This document shows, piece after piece, positions 11,511 to 19,966 of a stretch of DNA of 64,000 nucleotides (position 1 is its first letter; each line of letters begins with the position of its first letter). The position numbers were made by a program, and so were the translations under genes. The stretch spans positions 1 through 64,000 of the forward strand of contig WIAL01000028.1 in assembly GCA_015519975.1 (NCBI GenBank), in the 5' to 3' direction. This DNA comes from Hydrogenothermaceae bacterium (GTDB lineage: Bacteria > Aquificota > Aquificia > Aquificales > Hydrogenothermaceae). The notes under the pieces were generated by a model. That model worked only from the letters and a program-made list of their open reading frames with translations. It made no database searches and had not been told where the DNA came from.

Positions 11511-12647
11511 TTATCCTCCCAATACTTTTTCTAAAATATTTAATGCTTCATCTATTTCATTTTTATTAATAATTAATGGAGGAACAAAACGCAAGGTATT
11601 TTTACCTGCAGTGCCTATTATAAGCCCATTTTCAAGGCACTTTTTAGCAACTTCTTTTGCATTAATCTCTTCAGGTAAATCTGCTCCAACCATTAATCCA
11701 ATTCCTTTTGCTTTTAAGCCTATTTTCTTTAGATTTTCTTTCAAATATAATCCCTTTTCGTAAACTTCATTTAAAAAATTAGGTTTTAGAATTTCATTTA
11801 AAACAACCTTTGCTGCTGTCATAGAAAGGTAATTACCTCCAAATGTAGAACCGTGAGTTCCAGGGGTAAAAGCCTTTGCAACTTCTTCTTTTGCAACTAC
11901 CGCCCCAACAGGAACGCCCCCAGCAAGTCCCTTCGCTAATGTAATAATATCTGGCTCAAAATTAAAATGCTGATAAGCAAAAAGTTTTCCCGTTCTTCCT
12001 ATTCCGGTTTGTACCTCATCTATAACAATTAAAATATCATTTCTTTTAGATATTTTAATAATTTCATTTAAAAACTCTTCATTAATAGGATTTACACCAC
12101 CTTCTCCTTGCACAATTTCAAACATGATAGCTGCAGTATTTTCTGAAACCGCTTTTTTTAGACTTTCTACATTGTTAAACTCTGCATACTTTATGCCTTG
12201 AAGTAGAGGCTTAAATCCCTCGTGGTATTTTGGCTGGGCAGTTGCTGTTAAAGAACCTATTGTTCTACCGTGGAATCCTCCTGTAAATGTAATTATTTCA
12301 TATTTTTCAGGATTTCCTTTGTCATAAAAGTATTTTCTAACAAGTTTTATTGCCGTTTCATTTGCCTCTGCTCCGCTATTGCAGAAAAACACTTTTCCAT
12401 TTTCCAGTGAATTTTTAACAAGTATCTCTGCCACTTCTTCTTGTGGCTTTATTTTAAAAAGGTTTGAAACGTGTATTAATTTTTTTGCTTGACTGCAGAT
12501 AGCATCTGTAAGCTTTGGATGTGCATAACCAAGTGTGTTTACTGCTATACCTGCAAGCATATCAATATATTTATTTCCTTTGTTATCATACAAATAAACA
12601 CCTTCTCCTTTTTCAAAATAAACATCATATCTGGTATAGTTTTCCAT
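11511..12647 (-). CDS. argD: Acetylornithine aminotransferase
   Basis: This 378-residue class III PLP-dependent aminotransferase shows FFCNSGAEANETAIKLVRKY, GGFHGRT, the PLP-contact motif VIDEVQTGIGRTG and the Schiff-base lysine in ITLAKGLAGG. It would convert N-acetylglutamate semialdehyde to N-acetylornithine in arginine synthesis. Succinyl-DAP aminotransferase activity in lysine synthesis is possible too. I chose ATG 12647 over an upstream TTG at 12659 because it overlaps the stop of the preceding GGDEF-EAL gene as TAATG, a usual coupling arrangement. No other arginine gene is nearby. Confidence 0.9.
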   Translation of the reverse strand: MENYTRYDVYFEKGEGVYLYDNKGNKYIDMLAGIAVNTLGYAHPKLTDAICSQAKKLIHVSNLFKIKPQEEVAEILVKNSLENGKVFFCNSGAEANETAIKLVRKYFYDKGNPEKYEIITFTGGFHGRTIGSLTATAQPKYHEGFKPLLQGIKYAEFNNVESLKKAVSENTAAIMFEIVQGEGGVNPINEEFLNEIIKISKRNDILIVIDEVQTGIGRTGKLFAYQHFNFEPDIITLAKGLAGGVPVGAVVAKEEVAKAFTPGTHGSTFGGNYLSMTAAKVVLNEILKPNFLNEVYEKGLYLKENLKKIGLKAKGIGLMVGADLPEEINAKEVAKKCLENGLIIGTAGKNTLRFVPPLIINKNEIDEALNILEKVLGG

Positions 12648-14545
12648 TAAATATCCCAACTTTTATCCTCCAAAAACTCTTCTATAGGTTTTGGCTTACT
12701 AAAATAATAACCTTGGCCGTATTCTACACCAATTTCTATTATCTTTTGAAGTATTTTTTCATTTTCAACATATTCAGCTATTGTTTTAATTCCGGTGTGT
12801 TTACAAAATTCTGTAACAGCCTTTACAAGCTCTTCAGATTTTTTATTTTCAAGTATAGTTTTTATAAGATTTGCATCTATTTTCACATAATCTATATCAA
12901 GTTTTAAAATATATTCAAAGTTAGAATATCCACTCCCAAAATCATCTAAGCTAAGCTCATATCCTTTTGCTTTTAAATTTTTCAAATTTTCCAAGACTTT
13001 TGAGTAATTTCTAATCTCCTCGGTTTCAATCACTTCAAGTTTTAGTCTTTTTATCATTTCTTCTTTTAAAGAAAGTAAGTATTCTACTGTGGAGTCATTT
13101 ATAAGATCTGAAGGCGATAGATTTATACTTACATTTAAATATTCATGCTTTTCTAATATATTTAGATTAAACTCAATTACTTTTTTAGTTAATTTTGCAT
13201 AAATATAGGTGTTTTTTATAACTTCTAAAAATTTATCTGGATAAATTAAATTCCCATTGTCTTTTAGCCTTACTAAACTTTCAAAATATAAAACTTTTTG
13301 TGTTTTTAGGTCTAATACAGGTTGATAGTGACATACGAGATTTCCTTTTTCTATTAAATCATTTATTTTTGAAATTGATGTAAAAGTTTCTCCTTCTTCG
13401 TAAATTTCCATACGGTTTCTACCATTTAACTTTGCTTTATACAAAGCAATATCCGCTTTTTTTATAGCTTCTATTAAAGATTTTTCTCGTTCTGTATCCA
13501 GATACACTCCTACAGATGCTGTTAATTTTATTACTTGTGAATCTATTTTAAATGGATAATTTCTTATTCTTCCTAAAGCTCTTTGAATAGCATTAATAGC
13601 AAAATATTTATTAAGTCTATCTTTTTTTATTAATACTAAAAATTCCTCTCCGCCGTATCTAATGATTATGTCTTCTCCTTTTCTAAAGGAAAGTTTTAAA
13701 ACTTTTGCAAAATCTTTTAATATCTGGTCTCCAGCTTTATGCCCGTAAGTATCATTAATTTTTTTGAAAAAATCAATATCAAATAAAGCTACTGCATAAT
13801 TTTTATAGTCAAATGTAACGATAATATCCTCAAGAAAATTCCTGTTATAAACCCCTGTAAGTTCATCTACATATGCTTTTCTTTTAAAATAGATAGCTTT
13901 TAAACTTGTGAGAAGAATTATTAAAATAGAAATTACTGCAAAAATTATAATAATATTTAACAGCCATTTTATTAAATCAACTATATTTTCAATTGATTTT
14001 AATGTCTGAATTGTAAAATCTACAAATACTATCGCCTGAACTTTATTATTGACAAGAAACGGATATAAAATTGTGATACCTATATTTTTAACTGTGGTAA
14101 ATTCCTGAATTATTATCTGAGTTTTTTTTGTTTTATAAATTTTTTTTATAATTTTTTGTTCAGTTAAAGTTGGAAAAAATATTTCATCGTGTTGAACTTT
14201 TTCTTGTGGAGAAGCATCAGCTAAAAACTTATAAATATTTCCTTCTTTATATATAGCAAATATATTCTCTACATTTTTATCTATTAAATAGCTAAGTTTT
14301 TTTTCTAAACTTCTTCTAACTTCCTCTTTTTTCAAATCTTCTATAGAATTTATATGATATTGTTTAACTATTTCTTTGTTTATATTTCTTAAAAATGCTT
14401 TATACGGTGAAGATATATAATAAATTAGTTCATTTTTTGCTTTTTTTTCTATTTTAGGTAAAAAAAAGTGAAATACCAATGAAATTATAAGAACTACTCC
14501 TATTAAAATTAAAAACAAAAATTTATTATTAGTATTCTTTATCAT
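12647..14545 (-). CDS. Membrane GGDEF-EAL c-di-GMP enzyme with extracytoplasmic sensor
   Basis: The 632-residue protein has a membrane helix near the N-terminus, a periplasmic sensor of about 150 residues and a second helix (about 190-215). A GGDEF domain carries RYGGEEFLVLI and a C-terminal EAL domain carries FESLVRL, SINLSPSDL, LDDFGSGYSNF, VKIDANL and QGYYFSKP. The GGEEF signature and most EAL metal and catalytic residues are present, although AEGVE reads AEYVE. It may therefore both make and degrade c-di-GMP. It overlaps the gene for the periplasmic YfiR-like protein by 4 bases, which suggests that protein regulates it. Confidence 0.88.
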   Translation of the reverse strand: MIKNTNNKFLFLILIGVVLIISLVFHFFLPKIEKKAKNELIYYISSPYKAFLRNINKEIVKQYHINSIEDLKKEEVRRSLEKKLSYLIDKNVENIFAIYKEGNIYKFLADASPQEKVQHDEIFFPTLTEQKIIKKIYKTKKTQIIIQEFTTVKNIGITILYPFLVNNKVQAIVFVDFTIQTLKSIENIVDLIKWLLNIIIIFAVISILIILLTSLKAIYFKRKAYVDELTGVYNRNFLEDIIVTFDYKNYAVALFDIDFFKKINDTYGHKAGDQILKDFAKVLKLSFRKGEDIIIRYGGEEFLVLIKKDRLNKYFAINAIQRALGRIRNYPFKIDSQVIKLTASVGVYLDTEREKSLIEAIKKADIALYKAKLNGRNRMEIYEEGETFTSISKINDLIEKGNLVCHYQPVLDLKTQKVLYFESLVRLKDNGNLIYPDKFLEVIKNTYIYAKLTKKVIEFNLNILEKHEYLNVSINLSPSDLINDSTVEYLLSLKEEMIKRLKLEVIETEEIRNYSKVLENLKNLKAKGYELSLDDFGSGYSNFEYILKLDIDYVKIDANLIKTILENKKSEELVKAVTEFCKHTGIKTIAEYVENEKILQKIIEIGVEYGQGYYFSKPKPIEEFLEDKSWDI

Positions 14546-14997
14546 TTTTGTGCCAATCTTTTAGATACAACATAATTTTGCAATTCTTTATTTACTTTTA
14601 TATTAAATAGATCAAGATTTTCTTTTATTAAGATTATCTGTGGTCTTCCTTTCCTCCAGTAAAAAGCCCCAATACAGTTTTGACAATTCTTAAATGATAT
14701 GTAATCAAGAGCAAAAGCAGGTTTTTTAAAGCTTATTTTTTCTTCTATTCCTTTCACTAAAATAATATCTGCCAACTGACAATTAGTTATTTTAAATTCG
14801 CTAAAATTTTCATACTCTTTTTTTTCATATTCATGAAATTTATAAAGGCAAACCTTTGGATTTTGTTTATTAGTTAAAGATATGACTATTTCCGAAATAA
14901 TTTTTATTTCTAAAAGCTTAGCTTTATCTATTGCAAAAACTATGTTTATTAATGCGAAAGTCATTATAAAAACAAAAGTTAACCTTTTTTTCATCAA
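14542..14997 (-). CDS. Exported small protein, candidate YfiR-like periplasmic regulator
   Basis: The 151-residue protein has a signal peptide (MMKKRLTFVFIMTFALINIVFA), a compact mature domain, a CQNC motif near residue 108 and a following GAFYWRKGRPQIILIKENLD segment. The shape and position recall YfiR/DUF4154 proteins, which bind the periplasmic domain of a diguanylate cyclase and restrain it. The match is by context and pattern, not by strong motif. It overlaps both neighbours by 4 bases (outer-membrane receptor upstream, GGDEF-EAL downstream), so the three are probably one translationally coupled unit. Confidence 0.6.
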   Translation of the reverse strand: MMKKRLTFVFIMTFALINIVFAIDKAKLLEIKIISEIVISLTNKQNPKVCLYKFHEYEKKEYENFSEFKITNCQLADIILVKGIEEKISFKKPAFALDYISFKNCQNCIGAFYWRKGRPQIILIKENLDLFNIKVNKELQNYVVSKRLAQK

Positions 14998-16904
14998 AAC
15001 ACCTTTTCTAAGCTAATTAGAAACCTTCTATCGAAGCTCTGGTATGTTCCAGAAGTAGTAGGAGTTACAAAAACTGCTTTAGCTGATGAATTCAATACGT
15101 TTTCTCCTTTAATCTTTAAAGAAAATCCGTTTTTAAATCCATATGTTGCACCTAAAGATAGATCATAAGAATCATCAACTTTGATATTTTGATACTTAAA
15201 ACTATTTCTATATAAAAACGTGGAAAAATAGTTTAATTTTTTAAATTGCCCTTCTAATATTAAATTAATTCCATCAGATGAAGAAAGATCATTGTAATTT
15301 ATAGAATCTAAACGCCATCCATTTACTCGTAAAGTATTATTTTTTAGTTTTATATTATATTCTAAAGAATAGAGCCAAGATTTATAATTTTTTGAATTAT
15401 TAATATACCCTTGACTTGTAGGAATTAATATATTTTTTGTTTCACTGAAAATGAGTGTTGCATTTATATTTTGGCTACTTGAAAATAAATATTTTCCTTC
15501 CAAAAATAATGTATTTAATCTCATAGGTTTTAAATTTTCTCTTTTTATTTCTATATAAATTAATGGAGGTGGTAAATAGCTCTGTGTAGCGTACATTTTA
15601 AAGTTGTATTTATCTTTGTTAAAAAGAAAACCTAATTTTTTATCAAAAACTATTCTATCTTTATTAGTATACCAGTCGTATGAAGATAGTTTCCCATTTG
15701 CAAATAAACTTAAGTATTTATTAACTGCATATTTATAATTTAAAAATAAAGAAATGAAATGATCTTCTTCTTCATAATCAGGTTCATAATCATATACAAC
15801 CACATTTGATGGATAAATTATTTTTTTGCCTCGCGCATTTTGCTGATAATCTTGGTAAGTAATTCCAGTATTTATAAAATGTTTATTAAATTCAAAATCC
15901 TTTGTCATATGTAGTATAAACTTTGTAAATGTAGCATCCTCATTAAGATATATTGGCACACCATATTGATTATTGACATATTTTAAATAATAAACACCAA
16001 CATCTTCGTTTTTTTCTATATAATTTCTATCTTGCCAATCATAAGAAATTAGGATCTTAAAGGATTTATCATCAAGTAATTTTTGTGATAAAGAAAAAAA
16101 TATGTCTGTTGATTGCATCTTGCCGTAATCTGGAGCAAAATTCGGAGAAAACCCACCCCACACTCCTCTATCTACATGGGATGCTGAGATTTGTACTTCT
16201 GTGTCAATATAATTAAACTTTAGATAAAAATGTTCCCTTTTTTGGTTTCTATCTAGATTATGTGAGTTTACAAAAAGTTTATCATATTTTTTCTCACCTT
16301 TGTTTACAAGTATAAAATATCCAAAATTTCGTGTTAACTGCCTTGCATCCGAAAATGTAACTGAATAACCTTTTTTATTATCCATAAGACCTTTTAATAT
16401 TGATACATTTTCCTTTTTAGGATCTTTAGAATAAAGATTTACTATAATCACTCCATTTTCTACTGATGTTCCTGATATTGAATTTGTGAAATAAATTTCT
16501 GCTTTTTGTATATTATCAAGAGGAAATTCATCATATGTTAAAAATGGACTTGATGTTTGCATAGAACTTAACTCATGACCATCTAAAAATATTCTAACAA
16601 CGTAACTTATTGGTTTTGGGCTTGCACTTGAAAATACATATTGAAGAACTCCAAAACCATTTGGATAAACTGTTCCAAAAGGAAGTAATTTTAATAAATC
16701 TGTAACTGTGTTTAATTGTAAATTCTCTATATCTTCTCTAGAAAAGACATAAACTTTCCCAAGTGTTTCATCAACTGTTTTTCGGACTTCTGCTGTTTCA
16801 TATTCTTCCAGCAGTTTAGAAATGTCCTCTTGTGATTTTGATACGCTTAAAAACCCTGTAACTAAAAAAGATATTATAAAAAAAATTAAAATCCTACTTT
16901 TCAT
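14994..16904 (-). CDS. TonB-dependent-receptor-like outer-membrane protein with plug domain
   Basis: This 636-residue protein has a signal peptide, then a plug-like domain (about 40-155) with TLGKVYVFSREDIENLQLNT and VRIFLDGHELSS. A long beta-barrel with many aromatic strands follows and ends in SLEKVF. No convincing TonB box can be seen, so it may act as a sensor or be gated differently. The ligand is unknown. The gene sits between a Crp-type regulator (11-base overlap) and the YfiR-like and GGDEF-EAL genes, suggesting an outer-membrane input to c-di-GMP signalling and not only nutrient uptake. Confidence 0.75.
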   Translation of the reverse strand: MKSRILIFFIISFLVTGFLSVSKSQEDISKLLEEYETAEVRKTVDETLGKVYVFSREDIENLQLNTVTDLLKLLPFGTVYPNGFGVLQYVFSSASPKPISYVVRIFLDGHELSSMQTSSPFLTYDEFPLDNIQKAEIYFTNSISGTSVENGVIIVNLYSKDPKKENVSILKGLMDNKKGYSVTFSDARQLTRNFGYFILVNKGEKKYDKLFVNSHNLDRNQKREHFYLKFNYIDTEVQISASHVDRGVWGGFSPNFAPDYGKMQSTDIFFSLSQKLLDDKSFKILISYDWQDRNYIEKNEDVGVYYLKYVNNQYGVPIYLNEDATFTKFILHMTKDFEFNKHFINTGITYQDYQQNARGKKIIYPSNVVVYDYEPDYEEEDHFISLFLNYKYAVNKYLSLFANGKLSSYDWYTNKDRIVFDKKLGFLFNKDKYNFKMYATQSYLPPPLIYIEIKRENLKPMRLNTLFLEGKYLFSSSQNINATLIFSETKNILIPTSQGYINNSKNYKSWLYSLEYNIKLKNNTLRVNGWRLDSINYNDLSSSDGINLILEGQFKKLNYFSTFLYRNSFKYQNIKVDDSYDLSLGATYGFKNGFSLKIKGENVLNSSAKAVFVTPTTSGTYQSFDRRFLISLEKVF

Positions 16905-17556
16905 ATGTACAGTCCTTTAATAAGTATATAAATTTTTTTTCAATAAATATTTTATTCTCTTTTTTTAACTTGTTAAATAAGTTTGAAACCGTTTCCCTTG
17001 TACTTCCCACCATGTCAGCAATATTTTGATGGGTTAAAGGGATATTTATTTTAACAAATTCTGGTTTTTCTGTTGTTTCCACACCAAATTTTTCAGAAAG
17101 CCTTTTCAAAAGAGATAAAAGCCTTTCCTCTACAGGTTTAAAAACAATGTCTGAAAGGGCAACCTCAAGGGTGTATTTTTTCAGTCCAAGGTACTTTCTC
17201 ATCTGAAAGTTTAAATTAATGTCCTGATTTATAAGTTTTTCAAAAAAGTTTTTATGTATCATACAAAGGAGGGTATCTGTTAGAGCCTGTGCATATTCAT
17301 CACAGCATTCTGTTATTTGTCCAAAGATTTCCCCTTCCTTTAAAATGTCTGTTATAAACCTTTTTCCATTTTCTTCTCTGTAAAGAATTACTTTCCCGGA
17401 TTTTACAAGATAGACATATTCTGTGTTTTCCGGAGTTGTTATTATAGAGTTTTTCTTGAACTCTTTCATAAAGGAATTTTCTTCAAGGCTGTTCATAAGC
17501 TCCTGAGATAGATTTTTAAACAGATCTATCCTTTTTATAAACCATAACTTTTCCAT
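16894..17556 (-). CDS. Crp/Fnr-family transcriptional regulator
   Basis: The 220-residue protein has an N-terminal cyclic-nucleotide-binding-type barrel (VYLVKSGKVILYRE, LKEGEIFGQITECC), a long dimer helix and a C-terminal winged helix with THQNIADMVGSTRETVSNLF as the recognition segment. The N-terminal Cys cluster of oxygen-sensing FNR is absent. A Cys pair in ITECCDEY could sense metal or redox, which is speculative. ATG 17556 was chosen because AAGGT lies upstream and MEKLWFIKRIDLF is a normal family N-terminus. It is divergent from the DoxX/RiPP operon and leads the leftward receptor and signalling genes, so it may control either. Confidence 0.88.
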   Translation of the reverse strand: MEKLWFIKRIDLFKNLSQELMNSLEENSFMKEFKKNSIITTPENTEYVYLVKSGKVILYREENGKRFITDILKEGEIFGQITECCDEYAQALTDTLLCMIHKNFFEKLINQDINLNFQMRKYLGLKKYTLEVALSDIVFKPVEERLLSLLKRLSEKFGVETTEKPEFVKINIPLTHQNIADMVGSTRETVSNLFNKLKKENKIFIEKKFIYLLKDCTYEK

Positions 17557-17624
17557 TTTGTAATCTACCTTACAGTTTTTTATAAGTTTTGTATGTATAT
17601 TAAAAATTGTCAAGGAGGAATGAA

Positions 17625-18080
17625 ATGTTCTGGAAAATTTACAAAACTTACGAAGATATTTTAAATAATGGACAGGATTATTTTATTTTAATAGTAAGGC
17701 TTTATTGGGGATGGCTGTTTTTCAGGGCTGGTTTCTGGAAGTTTACCCACCATGAGCAGGCAGCAGGCTTTTTCAATTACTTAGGACTTCCTTTTCCAGA
17801 GTATTTTGTAATATTTATAGCTTTTGTGGAAACCTTTGGAGGTATATTTTTATTCCTTGGGTTTTTTTCAAGAATTACAGCCCTTATATTAACCTTTAAT
17901 ATGATAGGTGCTTTTTTAGTAGGACATAGAGAATCTCTTTTATCTATATTTTCAAAACCTGAAGATTTTTACATGGCTCAGCCTTTAACATTTTTGCTTG
18001 CTTCACTAATTGTACTCTTTTTTGGAGCAGGGAAAATATCTATTGACTATTTCTTATTAAAGAAGTACTATAAATCATAG
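17625..18080 (+). CDS. DoxX-like membrane protein of a RiPP (bufferin-type) operon
   Basis: The 151-residue protein has four hydrophobic helices and DoxX-family features: LYWGWLFFRAGFWKF near residue 26, LPFPEYFVIFIAFVETFGG, and an RITALILTFNMIGAF helix. DoxX-like proteins recur in bufferin-type operons, where their job is unsettled. ATG 17625 is preceded by AAGGAGG with good spacing; a TTG-initiated extension at 17607 would start ahead of that site. It heads a four-gene rightward operon with the Cys-rich peptide, MNIO enzyme and DUF2063 protein. Confidence 0.85.
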   Translation: MFWKIYKTYEDILNNGQDYFILIVRLYWGWLFFRAGFWKFTHHEQAAGFFNYLGLPFPEYFVIFIAFVETFGGIFLFLGFFSRITALILTFNMIGAFLVGHRESLLSIFSKPEDFYMAQPLTFLLASLIVLFFGAGKISIDYFLLKKYYKS

Positions 18081-18103
18081 TAATTAAAAGGAGGTATTTT
18101 GTT

Positions 18104-18463
18104 ATGAAGAAAAAAGTTACAGCAATATCAACAGCAGTTGGAATGGTAGCAACAACAGCACTGGCAGACAATCTTGTAAGCTATCAGCAGGGTAAAGTGT
18201 CAGACAGCCGTTATCTTCTTGCTTCTGCAGATGAAATGACCTGCGGTAAAGAGATGAAGGAAAAGGTGAAAGAGTGCAGAAAAATGATGCAAGATATGAG
18301 ATGTGGAAAAGAAATGATGGAAGAAATGAAAGAATGTAAGCAAATTATGCAAAAGTATAAAGAAATGAACTGCGGTAATATGATGAATAACAATTCTAAA
18401 GAAAATAATACAAAGAAAAAAGCTAAAGAAATGGCTTGCGGTCAATGTGGAGCGATGAAATAA
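18104..18463 (+). CDS. Secreted Cys/Met-rich RiPP precursor peptide (bufferin/oxazolin-like)
   Basis: This 119-residue protein has a signal peptide with likely cleavage after TTALA (residue 21). The mature part is rich in Met, Lys, Glu and Cys. Seven cysteines lie at 47, 58, 67, 78, 90, 112 and 115. Five are followed by Gly, and four sit in an [E/D]MxCG motif (EMTCG, DMRCG, EMNCG, EMACG). A 20-residue unit is repeated: C47/C58 and C67/C78 are spaced identically. This resembles the EGKCG repeats of Cys-modified copper-binding precursors acted on by DUF692 enzymes. An AAGGAGG site precedes the ATG, and the MNIO start codon lies inside its 3' end. Copper binding is inferred; only the sequence pattern is seen. 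Confidence 0.82.
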   Translation: MKKKVTAISTAVGMVATTALADNLVSYQQGKVSDSRYLLASADEMTCGKEMKEKVKECRKMMQDMRCGKEMMEEMKECKQIMQKYKEMNCGNMMNNNSKENNTKKKAKEMACGQCGAMK

Positions 18464-19281
18464 TTAAGGGAGCCGGTCTTGGACTTAGAACTTCATTTAT
18501 AGAAGAAGTTTATGATTACCAACTAAAGCCAAACTGGTTTGAAGTTGCTCCTGAAAACTGGATAAAAAAAGGCGGATACTTAAAAAAACTTTTTGAAAAA
18601 ATAAGACAGGATTTTCCTATTGTATGCCACGGGCTTTCTCTATCTATAGGAAGCCCTGACCCTTTAAATTTTTCTTTTTTGAAAGAGCTAAAAGATTTTC
18701 TGGATTACTATGAGATAAAAGTTTATTCAGAGCATTTAAGCTTTTCCTATTTTAACGGAAGCAACACTTACGATTTACTTCCCCTTCCTTTTACTGTAGA
18801 AATGGCAGATCACATCATAGAAAAGGTGAAAATTGTTCAGGACTTTCTAGGCAGGCAGATAGCCCTTGAAAATGCTTCTATCTATCTGATACTTGAAAAG
18901 GAAATGGAAGAGCACGAGTTTATAAAATACATAGTTGAGAATGCAGGCTGTAAACTTCTTCTTGATGTTAATAACGTTTATGTAAATTCTGTAAATCACG
19001 GCTTTGACCCTTATCAGTTTATAGATAAAATTAATCCTGACTGGATTGAATACTACCACATAGCAGGACACGACAGAGTTGAAGAAAACTTGATAATAGA
19101 TACCCACGGTCAAGAAGTTATAGATGATGTTTATAATTTAATGGAATACACTTTAAAAAAACTCGGCAGTAAACCTGTTTTGCTGGAAAGGGACAACAAT
19201 ATCCCACCTTATAATGAGCTTTTACAGGAGTATAAAAAAGTCAAAAACTTAGTGGAAAAGCATGAAAAACAAATCATTTGA
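18445..19281 (+). CDS. DUF692 multinuclear non-haem iron oxygenase (MNIO), RiPP-modifying
   Basis: The 278-residue TIM-barrel protein shows DUF692/MNIO signatures: GAGLGLRTSF, WFEVAPENW, CHGLSLSIGSPDPLN, YSEHLSFS, ALENASIY, LLDVNNVYVNSVNHGFDP, YYHIAGHD and DTHGQEV. The conserved His, Glu and Asp residues in these motifs bind two or three irons in relatives such as MbnB. Such enzymes oxidise precursor cysteines to oxazolone/thioamide or thiooxazole groups. I chose ATG 18445, which overlaps the precursor gene by 19 bases; a TTG at 18436 is less likely. The peptide encoded just upstream is the evident substrate. Confidence 0.92.
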   Translation: MWSDEIIKGAGLGLRTSFIEEVYDYQLKPNWFEVAPENWIKKGGYLKKLFEKIRQDFPIVCHGLSLSIGSPDPLNFSFLKELKDFLDYYEIKVYSEHLSFSYFNGSNTYDLLPLPFTVEMADHIIEKVKIVQDFLGRQIALENASIYLILEKEMEEHEFIKYIVENAGCKLLLDVNNVYVNSVNHGFDPYQFIDKINPDWIEYYHIAGHDRVEENLIIDTHGQEVIDDVYNLMEYTLKKLGSKPVLLERDNNIPPYNELLQEYKKVKNLVEKHEKQII

Positions 19282-19966
19282 TATTTTAGAAAAATTTTAT
19301 AAGTCTTTAATACTTGGGGAAAATTTTTTAAACCTTCCAGAAAACCGGCTTTCACTATATCAAACCCTTGTGTTTAACAATATTGAAGACACATGCTCAA
19401 AGGCTTTTCCAATAACAAAAAAGATTTTAAAAGAAAACTGGGGTAGTTTGATAAGAGATTTTCTGAAAAACCATAAATTTTTTTCCCCTTACTTGTGGGA
19501 AGTTCCAAAGGATTTTATTTCTTACCTTGAAAATAAAGGTTTTTTTAAAGACAAGAGATTTCTTTATGAGCTTATGGTTTATGAATGGGTAGAAATGGAA
19601 GTTTTTAATGAGGATCTGCCTGTCAATCAAAGGCAGTTAAACTGGTATGAAAAGTATAAAATATCAAACACAGCAAAACTTTTAAACTTTAAATATCCTG
19701 TTCATAAAATTTCTAAAATTGGTATTGAGCAGATAGAGAAGCATGAAGGCAGTTATTTTTTAATAATATATCAAAACCCTGAAAATTATGAGGTTGAGTA
19801 TTTAGAAATTACTTCTTTTTTATATGAAGTTTTAAGCAGTTTAGACGATACACTTTTCAAAAATACTTCAAAAATTTGCGATAAATACGGAGTAAGTTTT
19901 GAGGAAATTGCTCCCCAGCTTGAAGAGTTTTTTAAACTTTTGATAAAAAATAAAATCATAGTTTAA
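19262..19966 (+). CDS. DUF2063 protein, MNIO partner
   Basis: The 234-residue protein has a DUF2063-like N-terminal domain (about 1-95) with RLSLYQTLVFNNIEDTCSKAFP and WEVPKDFISYL, then a second mixed domain ending in a winged-helix-like segment. DUF2063 proteins pair with DUF692 enzymes and are thought to present the precursor to them, as MbnC does for MbnB. Its ATG overlaps the MNIO gene by 20 bases, which strengthens the functional link. The stop overlaps the convergent acyl-CoA synthetase gene by 11 bases. Confidence 0.85.
   Translation: MKNKSFDILEKFYKSLILGENFLNLPENRLSLYQTLVFNNIEDTCSKAFPITKKILKENWGSLIRDFLKNHKFFSPYLWEVPKDFISYLENKGFFKDKRFLYELMVYEWVEMEVFNEDLPVNQRQLNWYEKYKISNTAKLLNFKYPVHKISKIGIEQIEKHEGSYFLIIYQNPENYEVEYLEITSFLYEVLSSLDDTLFKNTSKICDKYGVSFEEIAPQLEEFFKLLIKNKIIV

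Follow-up and report, generated by a model that had tools for sequence, protein, structure and literature searches.

A putative captophorin-type operon with a divergent EMxCG precursor and a linked Crp/Fnr regulator in the Hydrogenothermaceae

A 64,000-nucleotide stretch of a Hydrogenothermaceae (Aquificota) genome (G000, contig C17), hereafter the window, carries a compact set of four plus-strand genes (17625-19966) encoding, in order, a DoxX-family membrane protein, a Cys- and Met-rich precursor peptide, an MNIO (DUF692) enzyme and a DUF2063 partner protein, with intergenic spacings of 23, -19 and -20 bp (Table 1). This is the operon described in the original prediction, and the suggestion of a probable thermophile is in keeping with a genome that belongs to the Hydrogenothermaceae and is congeneric with WFXI01000015.1. 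The MNIO is the only one encoded by the genome, the 119-aa precursor is the only small Cys peptide at the operon locus, and the DUF2063 protein also matches 3DEE (phmmer, E=8.8e-8). A neighborhood comparison of Aquificota loci placed DoxX next to the MNIO cluster in only some relatives. Between positions 16500 and 20500 there was no match to Rfam families, and a promoter and terminator scan of the locus gave matches that did not rise above chance level. Divergent from the operon is a gene for a Crp/Fnr-family regulator, the frame of which is also open from an upstream TTG at 17613.

Table 1 Features of the operon and its divergent regulator in the window
Feature	Position	Strand	Evidence
Crp/Fnr-family regulator, 220 aa from ATG 17556	16894..17556	-	PF00027, PF13545
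Predicted Crp-type operator TGTAATCTACCTTACA	17559..17574	.	perfect TGTAA-N6-TTACA
DoxX-family membrane protein, HvfX-like but under the HvfX model cut-off	17625..18080	+	PF07681 E=1.7e-17
Precursor peptide, 119 aa, 7 Cys, 16 Met	18104..18463	+	family of 8; no model above cut-off
Predicted Sec signal peptide of precursor, residues 1-21 (ALA/D)	18104..18166	+	inspection by eye, hydropathy
Conserved segment SYQQGKVSDSRYLL, residues 26-39, candidate recognition (leader) sequence	18179..18220	+	conserved in 8/8 relatives
Precursor core, roughly residues 44-118	18233-18457	+	
MNIO (DUF692) enzyme	18445..19281	+	PF05114 E=4.2e-100
DUF2063 / PME-type 1 partner protein	19262..19966	+	PF09836 E=4.7e-13; NGO1945_C E=2.8e-7

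The N-terminus of the precursor, read by eye, consists of KKK, a hydrophobic stretch and ALA/D, and is separated from the core by GKVS[DE][ST]R, upstream of the first Cys, with GKVS, R36 and L39 invariant in all eight relatives (alignment A1). Four of the seven Cys occupy [E/D]MxCG sites (C47 EMTCG, C67 DMRCG, C90 EMNCG, and C112 EMACG), one lies in another CG site (C115 GQCG), and two are in non-CG contexts (C58 KECR and C78 KECK). These contexts bear out the predicted counts of seven Cys and four motifs, and even two or more [E/D]MxCG motifs were found in 0 of 5000 shuffled precursor sequences. The predicted 20-residue repeat is present as an imperfect tandem (12/20 identity, reached in 0 of 5000 shuffles), and the described richness in Met amounts to 14 per 98 residues beyond the predicted signal peptide. 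The precursor gene is conserved, with dN of 0.17 and dS of 1.9 (near saturation) between the host genome and its relative G002. AlphaFold2 modeling of the precursor (three sequences) gave only weak helices with a pLDDT of 50. A helical Cu-storage model was rejected on the basis that Cys/Met periodicity at 100 degrees was significant in none of the sequences (p 0.09-0.91).

A search profile derived from A1, the alignment of eight precursor relatives, matched 8 of the 136 Aquificota genomes with one copy each, the host and seven further Hydrogenothermaceae, and in every case the MNIO is directly downstream of the precursor. All eight members retain both non-CG Cys, mostly as KEC[KR], and the CG slots are filled by EMxCG, DMRCG, EASCG, ESSCG, GMTCG and, once, EGKCG. 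Since relatives have EASCG, ESSCG, and EGKCG in the same slots, [E/D]MxCG is one version of an ExxCG motif that varies across the family, and the Met described as flanking each site is not a rule of the family. The G002 precursor (L004 1160-1495) has lost one CG Cys (ASYGS) and has GNGG opposite MNCG of the window, with both KEC[KR] Cys retained. Searches of Pfam and NCBIfam, including the HvfA models NF050188 and NF050137, placed neither the window precursor nor the relatives tested in any described family above cut-off; the two HvfA models also had no match in the four Aquificota relatives tested, while matching the control precursors (an EGKCG-like precursor from Moraxella, P0002 and, weakly, an E. 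albertii precursor). A tblastn search of plasmid records, the sole search set outside the Aquificota, returned no match to the precursor. The new subtype that had been proposed thus stands as far as the models are concerned, but not as a separate chemistry, given the variable ExxCG motif. Hundreds of unclassified precursors with signal peptides and 1-18 Cys have been reported upstream of MNIO genes (PMC12452194), so that an unclassified precursor as such is to be expected.

The MNIO scored narrowly under the cut-off of the HvfB model NF003818 (350.5 bits, cut-off 360; a relative at L010 reached 360.7 bits) and was also under those for BufB (298 bits, cut-off 310) and MbnB (58 bits, cut-off 325). 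The DUF2063 protein (HvfC model, 135.8 bits, cut-off 142) and the DoxX protein (HvfX model, 53 bits, cut-off 80) also fell short, and the scores of these proteins below the curated Hvf cut-offs are counted against a captophorin assignment. The maximum-likelihood tree of the MNIOs groups all 17 Aquificota sequences in a single clade (support 98/96), the sister of which is the EGKCG-type enzyme from Moraxella (98/92), with the Buf1 and Buf2 enzymes (100/99) at a distance. Together with the MNIO and DUF2063 family matches, this tree agrees with the class originally proposed and places the operon on the Hvf (EGKCG) side. By analogy with characterized members, the operon is likely a captophorin-type (HvfABC-like) pathway by which these Aquificota make a copper-buffering RiPP, with Cys modification and Cu binding as presumed properties. 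Within the HvfABC/captophorin (5-thiooxazole) class, the precursor itself appears to form a divergent branch, with a variant sequence that is new and a kind that is already known.

Members of the Aquificaceae, along with one extra cluster in genome G006, have a second type of precursor, type B (L003, L010, and L013-L019). The type-B clusters share with the window the same MNIO clade with ERDN and precursor sites of the forms E[GA]xC[AG] and KEMxC[AG]. They differ in that the precursor is mostly divergent from the MNIO gene and in the absence of both KEC[KR] and the GKVSDSR segment, with sites that read EGKCAG, KEATC[AG], and KEM[TA]CAG; by these motifs, the type-B precursors bridge EGKCG and EMxCG. 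Separate MNIO clusters for the two precursor types (L037 and L038) occur together in G006, each with a perfect TGTAA-N6-TTACA upstream. Aquificaceae type-B clusters (L041 9261-10836, L043, and L044) have a rhodanese gene and one for a CxxCxxCC (PF03692) protein nearby, which may point to a connection with sulfur metabolism.

In the fontiphorin, oxazolin and gonophorin systems, the MNIO converts Cys to 5-thiooxazoles, each of which lowers the mass by 4 Da (PMC13097082). FonBC tolerates most non-Pro changes at motif positions 1-2, Arg at position 1 excepted, as well as A, R, or T at position 3, and prefers a small residue after the Cys, leaving sites with a charged residue there unprocessed, and the products of such reactions bind Cu(I) (PMC13097082). 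The position-3 residues of the window [E/D]MxCG sites are T, R, N, and A. Because FonBC rejects a charged residue after the Cys, C58 and C78 (KEC[KR]) may stay thiols. The E248-R249-D250 motif of the MNIO is invariant among relatives, as are the His/Asp/Asn motifs, and D250 aligns with the catalytic base FonB-D249. R15 is kept, and T16 and N251 stand in for FonB R16 and F250, sites that have been assigned to substrate selectivity (PMC13097082), and site choice may therefore differ. The residue after the catalytic Asp is Asn in all Aquificota MNIOs, Phe in L021 and 3BWW on the EGKCG side, and Asp in the Buf2 (Cys-Lys) enzymes L024 and L025. By analogy with FonBC, modification would be expected at the five CG sites and perhaps not at C58 and C78, bearing in mind that the window enzyme has Asn in place of the FonB Phe. 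It is possible, if somewhat improbable, that all seven Cys are modified, KEC[KR] included, with the Asn at the FonB-F250 site admitting CK as well as CG contexts. In favor of this, N251 differs from both the Phe of the Lys-Cys enzymes and the Asp of the Buf2 enzymes, and Buf2-type enzymes accept CK sites (PMC13097082); against it, Aquificaceae enzymes with the same Asn are paired with precursors that have no KEC[KR], and FonBC rejects a charged residue after the Cys (PMC13097082).

Beyond the operon, the divergent Crp/Fnr-family protein seems to be a regulator dedicated to this gene set. Neither this regulator with its operator nor the conserved leader segment and the two conserved non-CG Cys featured in the original prediction. 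The perfect TGTAA-N6-TTACA palindrome between the regulator and the operon is one of three found in 64 kb (0.15 expected), and the clusters in G002, G006 C136, and G006 C21 are preceded by the same palindrome, for a total of four clusters including the window. In the window and in G002, the palindrome can also be read as coding, at the start of the longer Crp frame, while those in G006 are not adjacent to the crp start. Sites with two mismatches, a threshold picked post hoc, occur in the divergent gaps of G059, G075, G071, and G070; amongst MNIO genomes without a Crp orthologue, a site with at most two mismatches is present in G071 only. Of the 136 Aquificota genomes, 6 have a Crp orthologue (E<=1e-20), and each of the six also has an MNIO, compared with 17 of 136 genomes with an MNIO overall, counts that are uncorrected for kinship. 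In five of the six, no more than 2 kb separates the orthologue from the MNIO, and in G078 the orthologue is on a different contig from a truncated, sub-cut-off MNIO match. The literature on the MNIO RiPP class consulted for comparison makes no mention of a link to a Crp/Fnr regulator. A wider regulon drawn from genome-wide sites was rejected, as 14 of the 15 other TGTAA-N6-TTACA sites inspected in the host genome fall within reading frames. Downstream of crp on the minus strand (12647-16904) are genes for a TonB-receptor-like protein (Plug just under cut-off), a secreted-looking protein of 151 aa and a GGDEF/EAL protein, which, based on their overlapping ends, likely constitute a signaling operon. 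The TonB receptor and GGDEF/EAL genes were rejected as parts of the system due to their absence beside the G002 cluster.

In the proposed mechanism, the DUF2063 protein would bind the conserved GKVSDSR..L segment in the cytoplasm and present the peptide to the iron MNIO, a role with a parallel in a Microbulbifer cluster, where a conserved N-terminal leader has been modeled to bind the DUF2063 protein (PMC12538549). The MNIO would turn the five CG-site Cys into 5-thiooxazoles (-4 Da each), with C58 and C78 probably remaining free thiols, and the modified peptide would then be exported by Sec. In the periplasm, the thiooxazole thiolates could bind Cu(I), aided by Met thioethers and C58/C78, so that Cu(I) would be safely held, with DoxX as a putative membrane accessory and the divergent Crp-family protein controlling its own gene and the operon via the shared palindrome. 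More specifically, and only tentatively, the product may be a mixed-ligand copper peptide that combines thiooxazoles at the CG sites, KEC[KR] thiols and Met thioethers and is switched by a dedicated Crp/Fnr copper/redox sensor.

The copper-type label given to the operon is an argument from analogy. Three P-type ATPases of the host genome (contigs C20, C41, and C11), all away from the operon, exceed the Cu-ATPase model cut-off; the CsoR family was not found in the genome. No copper genes are present beside the operon and, with the rhodanese and CxxCxxCC protein near the Aquificaceae clusters and the literature leaving other metals open (PMC12452194, PMC13097082), this would fit a modified peptide that targets another soft metal or metalloid (gold, mercury, arsenic, or silver) or sulfur or oxidative stress. 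Such a role is considered unlikely, as the characterized members on the EGKCG side bind Cu(I) (PMC13097082, PMC12538549) and bulbicupramide has no appreciable binding of Ni, Zn, Mn, or Fe. A reading of the peptide as a Cu(I) protein that resembles a metallothionein and carries no modification, with a different substrate for the MNIO, would suit the Met/Cys-rich composition and a modification that is presumed, but is highly improbable given the overlapping precursor and MNIO genes, their strict one-to-one pairing and a locus that holds no other small Cys peptide.

Read as a captophorin-type pathway, the operon would extend to the Aquificota a class characterized so far in the Pseudomonadota, and thermophilic captophorin enzymes would be useful for structural work. 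With an EGKCG/EAxCG/EMxCG series in one clade and two Cys contexts per substrate, MNIO site choice is directly testable, and the linked Crp/Fnr gene offers a handle on the signal that switches such clusters on.

Amongst known systems, the HvfABC pathways (oxazolin, fontiphorin, gonophorin, and bulbicupramide) share with the window an MNIO and DUF2063 pair, a precursor with Cys repeats that is secreted (as predicted for the window) and, often, DoxX. These EGKCG captophorins further share the ExxCG sites and the nearest MNIO clade, whereas the window precursor has EMxCG/EAxCG in place of EGKCG, the additional KEC[KR] Cys, a Met-rich composition and the GKVSDSR segment, and the window differs in the T/N at FonB R16/F250, the linked Crp regulator and the lack of a match to the HvfA models. 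Bufferin 1 (DUF2282) and bufferin 2 (Cys-Lys) have in common with the window the MNIO/DUF2063/DoxX cassette and a Sec signal peptide, predicted by eye in the window, though the precursor has no DUF2282 match and the MNIO lies outside the Buf1 group of the tree, as well as outside the Buf2 group and without the Buf2 Asp at the specificity site. Methanobactin (MbnABC) shares the MNIO superfamily and, presumptively for the window, Cys modification and Cu(I); it is set apart by the low MbnB match (58 of 325 bits), by DUF2063 in place of MbnC, which a family-model search did not find in the window operon, and by the predicted signal peptide of the window precursor.
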